A model generated the notes under the pieces. The model made no database searches. It was not told the origin of the DNA and saw only the letters and a program-made list of their open reading frames with translations. A stretch of DNA of 64,000 bases, taken from Luteibacter flocculans. Lineage in GTDB: Bacteria; Pseudomonadota; Gammaproteobacteria; Xanthomonadales; Rhodanobacteraceae. Below, in pieces: positions 37,751 through 57,125 of this stretch. The position numbers and the translations under genes are program-made. Each line of letters starts with the position of its first letter. Within the stretch, counting starts at the first letter, position 1. The stretch spans positions 726,001 to 790,000 of the forward strand of contig NZ_CP063231.1 in the NCBI RefSeq assembly GCF_023612255.1, written 5' to 3'.

Positions 37751-38503
37751 ATGTTGAAGAAAATCCTGCCGGCGATCCTTGCCGGTGCGTTCGCCATGAC
37801 GGCCTGTGCCGCCGACGACCAGAAAGCCGTTCGCGACGCGATCGAGTCCCTCGGCCCGGGCATTCAGGTGGACAGCATCGGCCCGGCGCCGATGCCCGGC
37901 TTCTACCAGGTGGTGGCCTCGGGTCGCATGGTTTATGTCAGCGCAGACGGCCGTTACATGCTCAACGGTAACCTGATCGACCTCAAGTCGAAGACCGATC
38001 TCAGCGCCGCAAGCTGGGCCGCCACGCGCAAGGCTGCCCTGGCCAAGTTGCCGGCATCGCAGCGTCTGATCTACGCGCCGGCCAACCCGAAGCACACCGT
38101 CACCGTGTTCACCGACGTCGACTGCGGTTTCTGCCGCCAGCTGCACGCGCACATCGACGAGTTCAACAAGCAGGGCATTGCGGTCGAATACGTGTTCTGG
38201 CCGCGCGAAGGCGTGAAGACCACGGCCGGCAACGATACGCCGTCTTACACCAAGGCGGTGTCCGTCTGGTGCAGTGCCGACCGCAAGAACGCCTTCAACG
38301 AGGCGATGAAGGGCGCCACCCCCAAGGCGGCGACCTGCGCGAACCCCGTGAAGGACGAATTCGAGCTGGGCGAACGCCTGGGCGTGAACGGCACCCCCAC
38401 CATCGTGACCGAGAACGGGGACGTGGTCGGCGGCTACGTGACGCCCGCCCAGTTGCTTCAGGCCCTGGAAGCCCCTGCCGGCACCCCCCGTCGCGGCGGC
38501 TGA
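37751..38503 (+). CDS. dsbC: Periplasmic disulfide isomerase DsbC
   Basis: Thiol:disulfide isomerase of 250 residues, exported by an N-terminal signal (MLKKILPAILAGAFAM, cleaved near residue 20). After the dimerisation region (about 25-85) the thioredoxin domain carries the active C125-G-F-C128, a second cysteine pair C174/C196 and the cis-proline P216 in GTPT. The isomerase is kept reduced by DsbD. The last codons (GTPRRGG) and the stop lie in sequence matching the 3' end of the REPIN-like repeat unit, so the gene's 3' end merges with the array. Confidence 0.93.
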   Translation: MLKKILPAILAGAFAMTACAADDQKAVRDAIESLGPGIQVDSIGPAPMPGFYQVVASGRMVYVSADGRYMLNGNLIDLKSKTDLSAASWAATRKAALAKLPASQRLIYAPANPKHTVTVFTDVDCGFCRQLHAHIDEFNKQGIAVEYVFWPREGVKTTAGNDTPSYTKAVSVWCSADRKNAFNEAMKGATPKAATCANPVKDEFELGERLGVNGTPTIVTENGDVVGGYVTPAQLLQALEAPAGTPRRGG

Positions 38504-38965
38504 AAAACACACCAGTGGGAGCCACCCTGGTGGCGATAAGCCAACGAAGCGGTGTAGCAGCGAGGCAAGCTCCCATCGCCAGCAGGCTGGCTCCCACCGG
38601 TTCCCATCGCGGCAGTTTAAAAACCATTGGTGGGAGCCACCCGGGTGGCGATAAGCCAACGAAGTGGTGTAGCGGCGAGGCAAGCTCCCATCGCCAGCAG
38701 GCTGGCTCCCACCGGTTCCCATCGCGGCGGTTGAAAAACATTGGTGGGAGCCACCCGGGTGGCGATAAGCCAACGAAGTGGTGTAGCGGCGAGGCAAGCT
38801 CCCATCGCCAGCAGGCTGGCTCCCACCGGTTCCCATCGCGGCGGTTGAAAAACATTGGTGGGAGCCACCCTGGTGGCGATAAGCCAACGAAGCGGTGTAG
38901 CGGCGAGGCGAGCTCCCATCGCCAGCAGGCTGGCTCCCACCGGCGGCTCCCATCGGCGGCTTCCG
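38490..38965. repeat. Four-copy tandem array of a REPIN-like element, dsbC-purL intergenic
   Basis: Four head-to-tail units begin at 38515, 38630, 38744 and 38858, a period of 114-115 bases. Each unit contains an outer REP-like palindrome GTGGGAGCCACCCGGGTGGC and, about 50 bases later, an inverted partner ending GCCAGCAGGCTGGCTCCCAC. Neighbouring units differ by a few substitutions; copies 2 and 3 are the most alike. The sequence just before unit 1, spanning the dsbC stop, matches the unit's 3' end. The same element occurs singly at 49.9 kb and, inverted, at 63.6 kb. Confidence 0.93.
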
Positions 38966-39043
38966 TAGGCGCCGGAGGCCCGACCATGCTGCCGCGCAAC
39001 ATCATGTAGAATGGGCGTTTTCCTGCAGCGCCTTTTCCCCCGC

Positions 39044-42000
39044 ATGATCGCACTCGACGGGCAGAGCGCCCTCTCGCCTTTTCGCCTCGAACGACTGAAC
39101 GCCCACCTGGATGCCCTGCATCACGGGACGCGGGTGCAGGCCGCCTGGTTCACTTACTTCGTCGACGCCGACGTCCCGCCGGAAGGCGAGGCACGCGTGC
39201 GTCTGCTTGCCGTGCTGGAGGCGAAGAGCACCGGTCCGGAAGATGCCACGTTCTGGGTCGTGCCGCGTCTGGGCACGATTTCGCCGTGGTCGAGCAAGGC
39301 CACCGACATCCTGCATGGTGCCGGCTTCGACGTGCGCCGTGTGGAGCGCGGCACCGCGTGGCGCGTCACCGGCATGCCGGCAGAAGATGACGCGTCCTAC
39401 GCCGCGGTCATGGCAGCCTTCTGCGATCCGATGGTGCAGTCGCCGCTGGATTCGCTGGAGCAGGCGTCCGGCCTGTTCCTGGCGGGCGAACCGGGTGCGC
39501 TCGGTCGCATCGATCTGGGCAACGATGCCGTGGCCGCGCTGTCGGCGGCCAACGCGTCGCTGGGCCTCGCCCTGGCCGACGACGAGATCGACTACCTCGC
39601 CACGCGCTATGCGGAGATGGGTCGCGCGCCGACCGACGCCGAGCTGATGATGTTCGCGCAGGCGAACTCGGAGCATTGCCGGCACAAGGTCTTCAATGCC
39701 ACGTGGACGCTCGACGGCGCTGAGCAGCCGGCGTCGCTGTTCGGCATGATCAAGAACACCCACCAGCATTCGCCTGCGCATACGCTCTCGGCGTATCACG
39801 ACAACGCGGCGGTGATCGAAGGCTACGAGGGCCAGCGTTTCTTCGTCGACCCGAAGGACAGCGTGTTCCGCACGGTCGCGGAAGCCGCGCCGTATGCGAT
39901 CAAGGTGGAAACGCACAATCACCCGACGGCGATCGCGCCGTGGCCGGGTGCCGCCACCGGTGCCGGTGGCGAGATCCGCGACGAAGGCGCGACGGGCCGC
40001 GGCGGCAAGCCCAAGGCCGGTCTCACCGGCTTCTCCGTCTCGCATCTGCGCATTCCCGGCCTTCCGCGCCCGTGGGAGAAGGATCGCCCGCTACCGCCGC
40101 GCATGGCCTCGGCGTTCGAGATCATGCGTGACGGTCCGCTCGGCGCGGCCGCGTTCAACAACGAATTCGGTCGTCCCGCGCTCGGCGGTTACTTCCGTAC
40201 GTTCGAGCAGGAAACAGGCGACAAGGGCGTGCGTCGCGGCTACGACAAGCCGATCATGATCGCAGGCGGCCTCGCCGCGATCCGCCCGGGACACGTCGAC
40301 AAGCGCAAGCTGCGCGCGGGTGACAAGGTGATCGTGCTCGGCGGCCCGGCCATGCTCATCGGTCTGGGCGGCGGTGCCGCCTCGTCCGTGGCGTCGGGTA
40401 CCTCGAGCGCGGAACTCGATTTCGCCTCGGTACAGCGCGACAACCCCGAGATGGAGCGCCGCTGCCAGCAGGTGATCGACGCGTGCTGGGCGCGCGGCGA
40501 CGAGAACCCCATCGTCAGCATCCACGACGTGGGCGCGGGCGGTGTGTCCAATGCCATTCCCGAGATCCTCAACGACGCGGGCGTGGGCGGCATCATCGAT
40601 CTCTCCAAGCTGCCGTGCGACGATCCGACGCTGTCGCCGATGCAGATCTGGAGCAACGAGTCGCAGGAGCGCTACGTGCTCGCGATCGGCAGCGAGAACC
40701 TGGCGCTGTTCGAGGAATACTGCGCGCGCGAACGCTGCCCGTTCGCCGTCGTCGGCGAGGCGACCGACGAACCGCGCCTGCTGGTGCGCGACACGCGTCG
40801 CGACATCACCGTGATCGACCTGCGCATGGACGTGCTGTTTGGCAAGCCGCCGCGCATGCACCGCGACGCCGTGCGCGTGAAGCCGCGCGTGGACCTGGTG
40901 GCCGACCTGACCGGCATCGGCATGGACGAAGCACTGATGCGCGTGCTGCGCCTGCCGGCGGTGGGAAGCAAGAGCTTCCTCATCACTATCGGCGACCGTA
41001 CCGTCGGTGGCCTCAACGCGCGCGATCCGATGGTCGGTCCGTGGCAGGTGCCCGTGGCCGACGTGGCGGTCACGATGACCGACTTCGACGGCTACACCGG
41101 CGAAGCCATGGCGATGGCCGAGCGCGCTCCTGTCGCGCTGCTGTCCAGCGCCGACGCCGCACGCATGGCCGTGGGTGAGGCGCTGACCAACCTCGCCGCC
41201 GCGTCGATCACGCTCGACGAAGTGCGCCTCTCGGCGAACTGGATGGCCGCCGTGAATCATCCGGGCGAAGACGCTGCGCTGTTCGATGCGGTGCGTGCCG
41301 TGGGCATGGAACTGTGCCCGTCGCTCGATATCTCGATCCCCGTGGGTAAGGACTCGCTGTCCATGCAGACGGTATGGACCGACGAGAGCGGCAAGGCGCA
41401 GAAGACCGTGTCGCCGGTATCGCTGGTCATCACGGGCTTCGCCCGTGTGGACGACGTGCGTCGCACGCTCACGCCGCAATTGCGGCTCGATCGCGGCGAC
41501 ACCGATCTCTGGCTGATCGATCTCGGCGCGGGCCGCGATCGCCTCGGCGGTTCGGCGCTCACCCAGGTCTTCAATCGCGGGGGCGGCGTCCCGCCGGATC
41601 TCGACGACCCCAAGCGCCTGCGCGCGATGTTCGAGCTGATCCAGGAGGCCAACCGCGCCGGCCTGCTGCTGGCCTACCACGACCGTTCCGATGGCGGCGC
41701 CATCGTGACGCTGCTGGAAATGGCCTTCGCCGGTCGTTGCGGTCTTGAGCTGCGTCTGGACGGTTGGGCAGAAGCAACGCTTCGCGCGCTGTTCAATGAA
41801 GAACTTGGCGCCGTCGTGCAGGTGGCGTCGGCCAATCGCGAGGCCTTCGAGCAATTGCTGGTCAAGTACAACCTCGCCGGCATGACCCATAACGTGGGCC
41901 GCCCGAAGGAAAAGCTTGGCATCAAGTTGCACCTCGGCGGCGAGACGCCGTTCAAGTGGAACTGGACCGAGCTGTTCCGCGCCTGGAATGAAACCAGCTA

Positions 42001-42907
42001 CGCGATGCAGCGCCTGCGCGATAACCCGCAGAGCGCGGATCAGGAAAACGAGTGGCGCCTCGACGACGTCGATCCGGGCATCTCGCCGAAGCTCGTCTTC
42101 GATCCGACGGAGAACATCGCTGCGCCGTATATCGCCACGGGTGTCCGTCCGCGCGTGGCGATCCTGCGCGAGCAGGGCGTCAACGGCCAGGTGGAAATGG
42201 CAGCGGCATTCGATCGCGCCGGCTTCGAGGCGGTGGACGTCCACATGACCGACCTCGCCAGCGGTCGCCACCATCTCAAGGACTTCGTCGGCTTTGCCGC
42301 GTGCGGCGGTTTCTCCTATGGCGACGTGCTTGGCGCCGGCCGTGGCTGGGCGACCTCCATTCTCTACAACGACGCGTTGCGCGAGCAGTTTGCGCGCTTC
42401 TTCGAGGATGGCAGCCGCTTCGCCCTGGGCGTGTGCAATGGTTGCCAGATGATGTCCGGTCTCAAGGACATCATTCCGGACGCGAAGCATTGGCCGCAGT
42501 TCCTGCGCAATCAGTCGGAGCAGTACGAGGCACGCCTCGCCACGCTCGAGATCCTCGACTCCGGCAGCATCTTCTTCCGTGGCATGGCCGGCTCGCGCAT
42601 CCCGGTCGCAGTGGCGCACGGCGAAGGTCGCGTGCATTTCCCGAGCGTGTGCAGCCCGTCCAAGAGCCACGCCGCCGCGCGCTTCGTGGACAACCGCGGC
42701 AAGCCGACCGAGAGCTACCCGTTGAATCCGAACGGTTCGCCGGGTGGCCTGGCTGCCTTCACCGCGGCCGACGGGCGCGTCACGATCATGATGCCGCACC
42801 CCGAGCGCGTGTTCCGCACGGCGCAGTTGAGCTGGCATCCGGAGCAGTGGGGCGAGGATTCCCCCTGGATGCGGATGTTCCGCAACGCGCGCGCGTGGGT
42901 GGGCTGA
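39044..42907 (+). CDS. purL: Phosphoribosylformylglycinamidine synthase (FGAR amidotransferase)
   Basis: Large single-chain PurL of 1287 residues that converts FGAR to FGAM in purine biosynthesis, with ATP and glutamine. The N-terminal and FGAM-synthetase domains include [33 protein letters not shown] and [17 protein letters not shown], all as in E. coli; the C-terminal glutaminase domain has the nucleophile cysteine in [10 protein letters not shown] and the His of [11 protein letters not shown] 39044 ([14 protein letters not shown]) matches the family N-terminus; an in-frame ATG at 39011 would add 11 residues. Confidence 0.97.
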
Positions 42908-56931: not shown

Positions 56932-56969
56932 TGCGCGGCTGGTTTCCCAGGAAGCCGGCCCTCCACAGC

Positions 56970-57110
56970 GTCTTCAGGGCGGGGCGAAACTCCCCACCGG
57001 CGGTAGGTTCCGCGAGGAACGAGCCCGCGAGCGCTCCCGGCATCCGTCGGGAGGTCAGCAGATCCGGTGCGATGCCGGAGCCGACGGTCACAGTCCGGAT
57101 GAAAGAAGAC
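56970..57110 (+). ncRNA. FMN riboswitch (RFN element)
   Basis: All conserved RFN blocks are present in order: GTCTTCAGGGCGGGG at the 5' end, CCCCACCGGCGGTA, GAGCCCGCGAGCG, GTCAGCAGATCCGGTG, GATGCCGGAGCCGACGGTC and CAGTCCGGATGAAAGAAGAC at the 3' end, closing P1 with the first GTCTTC. The aptamer binds FMN and turns down the downstream genes. A terminator-type hairpin follows at 57126-57161, so control is probably by premature transcription termination. Confidence 0.97.
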
Positions 57111-57125
57111 GGCGTACGTTCGCTT

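Follow-up and report, generated by a model that had tools for sequence, protein, structure and literature searches.

Near-identical REPINs repeated in tandem together with their flanking sequence are known from Pseudomonas fluorescens SBW25, where 16 such clusters were counted and an unexplained 'second mechanism' of cluster formation was noted (Bertels & Rainey 2011, PMC3116915). In the sections of that report cited here, the clusters lie beside RAYT genes, and the largest of them hold up to four REPINs. The BIMEs of Stenotrophomonas maltophilia are head-to-tail modules of two inverted REPs, the GT(A/G)G head being what defines a REP, and their inter-REP segments are without homology between clusters (Nunvar 2010, PMC2817692). 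According to the same source, as far as it is drawn on here, BIME-2 of Escherichia coli consists of several tandem BIME-1-like units, and length differences of BIMEs between strains have been reported for E. coli; recombination or slippage alone was judged an unlikely source of interstrain length differences in BIMEs.

The array described here lies between dsbC and a purL-type gene in a window of 64 kb (the whole stretch of DNA analysed, C1:726001-790000), which belongs to a Luteibacter-like genome consisting of a single contig of 4,299,254 bases. Its ordered head-to-tail units include flanking sequence, and it is of an already known kind because REPIN clusters of SBW25 and BIMEs of Stenotrophomonas have been published. 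E. coli BIME-2 belongs to a different REP family than this array. Binding of gyrase is known for BIME-2. In contrast to the SBW25 clusters, it has another REP sequence and another host, and its captured flank is a gene end with a stop codon, a feature not mentioned in the cited sections on SBW25. The Stenotrophomonas BIMEs likewise represent other REP classes, with segments that, in the description cited, are not derived from gene ends. A preliminary description of this DNA had regarded tandem amplification of a REPIN-like element as unusual, such elements normally being dispersed singly. The amplified element is indeed a REPIN, with a RAYT gene in the genome, and it was probably expanded in place; the supposed rarity did not hold, given the precedents in SBW25, Stenotrophomonas and E. 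coli and at least 16 loci with arrays in this genome. Taken alone, the dsbC array changes little. Its flanks reveal the direction of copying, in one clear case among 16 comparable loci, and the 16-locus set could help to decide how REPIN/BIME clusters form, by the 'second mechanism' or by a RAYT reaction.

Structure of the array between dsbC and purL

The dsbC-purL gap is 540 bp long here, compared with 70-370 bp in 22 congeners (one genome per species). TRF reports the array with a period of 114, 4.0 copies, 94% matches and a score of 796, whereas the remaining three TRF rows of the window score 53-63. The repeat search finds four copies of 114 nt, spaced 115, 114 and 114; with copy 2 as the reference, the identities are 90% for copy 1, 98% for copy 3 and 86% for copy 4. 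The preliminary description had named four tandem units of 114-115 bp, two opposed REP-like palindromes in each, a repeat that begins in the last dsbC codons and stop, and near-identical copies 2 and 3. All of these were recovered, the palindromes as the inverted arms I1, I5, I9 and I12. Its end of the array at 38965 has to be moved: the repeat proper stops near 38943, and the 13-bp direct repeat follows. The coordinates are collected in the table.

Table. Features of the dsbC-purL region (positions in the window; a dot marks a feature without strand)
Feature	Position	Strand	Basis and remarks
dsbC, 250 aa	37751-38503	+	ORF; DsbC_N and thioredoxin domains; last codons and TGA open the repeat unit
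Original dsbC 3' end, source of the spacer copies	38487-38509	+	23-nt repeat family; ending CGCGGCGGCTGA in congeners
Tandem array, four head-to-tail units of 114-115 bp	38487-38943	.	TRF and repeat search
REPIN 1, two inverted REPs	38515-38597	.	arms 38511-38537 and 38575-38601; inverted repeat I1; fold
Spacer 2, a few right-flank-like bases, then copied dsbC end with altered stop triplet	38598-38629	+	site alignment
REPIN 2	38630-38712	.	inverted repeat I9; fold
Spacer 3, short start resembling the right flank, followed by a copy of the dsbC end with TGA	38713-38743	+	site alignment
REPIN 3	38744-38826	.	inverted repeat I12; fold
Spacer 4, same sequence as spacer 3	38827-38857	+	sequence comparison
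REPIN 4	38858-38940	.	inverted repeat I5; fold
REPIN 4 end, followed in the right flank by a 13-bp direct repeat of the REP end	38932-38961	.	TRF
purL-type gene (FGAR amidotransferase)	39011-42907	+	ORF; FGAR-AT domains

Each unit holds an 83-bp element, GTGGGAG...CTCCCAC, in which two REPs stand in inverted orientation. Stretches of 86 nt, taken from all four units for the plus strand and from two units for the minus strand, gave six folds with predicted energies of −44.5 to −50.0 kcal/mol with z-scores of −3.35 to −5.34 (REPIN 1 as RNA: −48.3 kcal/mol, z −4.95). REPINs 2 and 3 are without difference across the 86 nt folded, and a short-read assembly could therefore miscount the units. A wrong copy number or another assembly artefact is nevertheless very improbable, since the genome, with a completeness rating of 100%, forms a single contig of 4.30 Mb, units 1, 2 and 4 have private differences, and further arrays with different spacers occur in the genome.

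Frames are open through the array on both strands, because a unit of 114 nt (38 codons) leaves any open frame open; a coding repeat was considered and rejected, as the sequence is that of a REPIN. The array has no match in Rfam at gathering thresholds, and the search of a plasmid collection gave none.

The REPIN family and its RAYT gene

Searching the whole genome with the REP pattern GTGGGAGCCASCCNGSTGGCGAT at up to three mismatches yielded 414 matches (197 forward and 217 reverse), and the reversed control pattern yielded 0 in the same search. In these matches, a GC-rich palindrome comes after the GT(A/G)G head, and in all four units two inverted REPs with a short spacer make up one predicted hairpin. 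BLAST of unit 2 against its own genome gave at least 87 matches, at least 62 of which are 70 nt or longer, the 62 being a lower bound from scoring 40 of 186 candidates. The preliminary description had looked to single copies elsewhere in the genome as a sign of expansion, and they are present: at 400 bp, the 62 listed matches of at least 70 nt group into 40 clusters. Of these, 31 consist of a single copy and nine hold the other 31 copies; three of the nine belong to a single array divided by insertion elements. The element is thus dispersed with many single copies, and its position is intergenic at the loci inspected.

One RAYT gene was found (C1:543296, 158 aa, NF047646, E 1.3e-40). Directly downstream of this Y1/RAYT gene lies a REP of the same kind as in the array, which marks it as the cognate RAYT; directly upstream of the gene, no REP was seen. 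Judged by these sequence features, the array element is a REPIN whose genome also carries a RAYT gene, and it would have been mobilised by that RAYT.

Related sequences extend to the congeners, where the unit has some match at E 0.001 or better in at least 14 of the 22 genomes (for six of the 22, 38 first-look candidates were scored). The best congener match among those listed reaches 68 bits (37/114 bases, G019), compared with 206 bits for the full unit. In one stretch of congener G002, six outward-facing REP pairs follow one another at a regular spacing of 104 bp, which indicates that tandem arrays occur in congeners too. Outward-facing pairs number 39 in the present genome and 0-142 in the other 22 (control 0-5); inward-facing pairs number 137 and 0-419, respectively (control 0-6). 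We dropped the outward-pair count as a measure of tandem arrays because it includes single palindromes of other build, for example in G002.

Origin of the spacers and growth of the array

The 23-nt dsbC end with its stop codon recurs before units 2, 3 and 4 at identities of 78, 91 and 91%, respectively. The gene itself is 78-94% identical to dsbC of the 22 congeners, and its ending CGCGGCGGCTGA is also found in five congener loci (L033, L034, L035, L039 and L041), all without this array; L039 and L041 have zero REP heads in the dsbC-purL gap. Because these array-less congeners end dsbC in CGCGGCGGCTGA, the dsbC end was copied into the spacers and was not made by the array. On this comparison of sequences, the dsbC end has spread by local copying and not by repeated insertion. 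When five sites of the array region are aligned with one another, spacers 2-4 open just after the REPIN end with TTCCCAT, which resembles the right flank, and continue like the dsbC end. The right-flank-like part comprises about 7-9 nt only; directly after the REPIN, the spacers depart from the right flank by a 3-base gap and one mismatch. The order of right-flank-like bases followed by the dsbC end is the junction that would be expected from tandem duplication of the dsbC end, the REPIN and a few further bases.

We therefore consider it likely that the array arose from one REPIN insertion, followed by tandem duplication in place and then by exchange between units. A RAYT-mobilised REPIN of the host species would have inserted once, 11 nt after the dsbC stop codon, and a segment that starts with the final codons of dsbC and takes in the REPIN would have been duplicated head to tail at that site. 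Template switching or slipped-strand synthesis at the REPIN hairpin would probably have produced the first duplication; the strong predicted hairpins count in favour of duplication in place. The array would then have grown to four units, which mutual exchange would have partly homogenised. Later exchange between units is suggested because REPIN 2 equals REPIN 3, spacer 3 has the same sequence as spacer 4, and whole units match closely (111/115 columns for units 2-3 and 111/114 columns for units 3-4). By eye, the sequence CCC.TCG.GGCGGCT is common to both sides of the break. The observed local alignment score of the 60-nt flanks is reached by 238 of 1000 dinucleotide shuffles, which is not significant, and the best flank alignment lies elsewhere than the supposed junction. 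Because the flanks are no more alike than chance for their composition, the shared bases at most hint at slippage driven by microhomology.

Capture of the dsbC end was also considered for the tandem array at L046 but set aside, because by eye its spacer aligns with the dsbC end in a short gapped stretch only. The gap at L046 has the same length and sequence as that at L081 (L. anthropi).

TRF applied to 71 loci, namely 40 fetched stretches and 31 loci from the unit BLAST and RAYT search, detected tandem arrays of REPs or REPINs at no fewer than 16 loci of this genome, the dsbC locus included. Because the array loci were chosen for visible REP clusters, the 16 represent a minimum and give no rate; L055 entered this count once, and shorter REP-containing rows of TRF at L011, L012, L019, L026, L060-L062, L066, L068, L119 and L122 were left out. 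Across the 16 loci, the periods range from 41 to 350 bp and the spacers are unlike by eye, and because both vary, the arrays most probably arose separately. Gene ends recur in them. The 3' end and stop codon of the RAYT gene are duplicated with a REPIN, 148 bp apart (L031:1821-2081, 112/113 bases equal), with a 119-bp tandem array following this duplication, and a 118-bp array carries the end and stop codon of a glyoxalase-family gene (E 4.9e-23). Because the same in-place pattern appears at these two gene ends, we counted them for duplication in place. Whole REPINs with their flanks make up the units of the dsbC and L114 arrays, whose overhang past the last complete unit amounts to 1 and 6 nt, respectively; by eye, L055 resembles both. 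Four other arrays have overhangs of 21 nt (L115), 30 nt (L121), 26 nt (L127) and 36 nt (L057), little above one REP, which is compatible with exchange between REPs.

Overhangs of this size would also suit a RAYT that makes tandem copies itself, cutting at REPs and joining REPINs head to tail, along the lines of the BIME idea of Nunvar (2010, PMC2817692), in which, in the part cited here, a RAYT-catalysed reaction is proposed as the driving force of BIMEs. The genome does contain a RAYT gene, with REPs and arrays right behind it. However, the unit borders are not fixed in appearance, with periods from 41 to 350 bp, and the units at the dsbC, glyoxalase-family and RAYT genes extend past the REPIN into the gene end; we consider copying by RAYT unlikely. 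Captured gene ends and varying periods make us lean towards duplication in place. Much more tentatively, and with more doubt than confidence, the REPIN hairpins of this lineage might be recurrent points of local duplication at which the 3' ends of adjacent genes, with their stop codons, are copied into arrays, as at the dsbC, glyoxalase-family and RAYT genes. If so, the 'second mechanism' of Bertels & Rainey would be tandem duplication provoked by hairpins and not transposition.

Two REPINs around a terminator-like hairpin at L058 (C1:121618) were not accepted as an array with captured flanks, since the spacer fits neither flank well by eye. At L117 (C1:1989000-1990700), REPINs form an array whose units measure 283 and 350 bp; it contains two REP kinds, and a terminator-like hairpin lies within its 283-bp units.

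The L055 locus (C1:1918700-1923200) is a REPIN array of about a dozen units after a glyoxalase-family gene. It is split by two near-identical IS110-type elements (DEDD_Tnp_IS110, Transposase_20), in one of which the transposase frame is fragmented into shorter, overlapping ORFs. The IS110-type element was found in six copies (L134-L139; C1:1919699, 3592634, 2838473, 1813536, 703396 and 1921348), all of them inside a REP at the same point, with GTGGGAG before and GCC after. IS110-family elements with all copies in REPs have been described, for example ISPa11, ISPpu9 and ISPpu10, in the account cited (Tobes & Pareja 2006). At L137 (C1:1813536), the left flank of the IS equals the L055 array spacer with the copied glyoxalase-gene end and a partial REPIN, and the right flank is a different REPIN. 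These mixed flanks are a sign of recombination or conversion with L055, which is about 106 kb away.

Possible roles of the array and the purL side

The dsbC-purL gap of 13 of the 22 congeners contains a REP head of some class. The sequences differ, which suggests that different REP classes reached this gap in different species. The other nine are without a REP head, five of them with gaps of just 70-95 nt; L047 is counted among the nine, though a REP begins at its gap border. The recurrence of REPs in 13 of the 22 gaps, a count that covers this gap alone, could be taken to mean that the array is kept by selection, its hairpins protecting dsbC mRNA, ending transcription before purL or binding gyrase like E. 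coli BIME-2. The stable predicted hairpins would suit such roles, and the cited part of Nunvar (2010, PMC2817692) gives both gyrase binding by BIME-2 and REP-assisted Rho termination as precedents. On the minus strand there are also four terminator-like sites, one per unit, compared with a mean of 1.0 (sd 1.0) in shuffles. However, these sites owe their T run to the A run copied with the dsbC tail, and they may be a by-product. On the plus strand, neither a terminator-like site nor a sigma-70-like promoter was found in 38300-39200. With REP heads absent from the gap in nine of the 22 congeners as well, maintenance by selection appears distinctly improbable, and the array most likely has no selected function of its own.

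The likely start of purL is at 39044, downstream of the array, and the congeners align from this position. A block ahead of purL (ATGCTGCCGCGCAACATCATGTAGAATGGGCGTTTTCC, 38986-39023) is well conserved in the congeners. It resembles a partial palindrome over a −10-like TAGAAT and is a candidate control site for purL; the inverted-repeat search of 38960-39060 did not report this palindrome. The window also contains an FMN riboswitch at 56966-57114 (Rfam RF00050, 105.1 bits).
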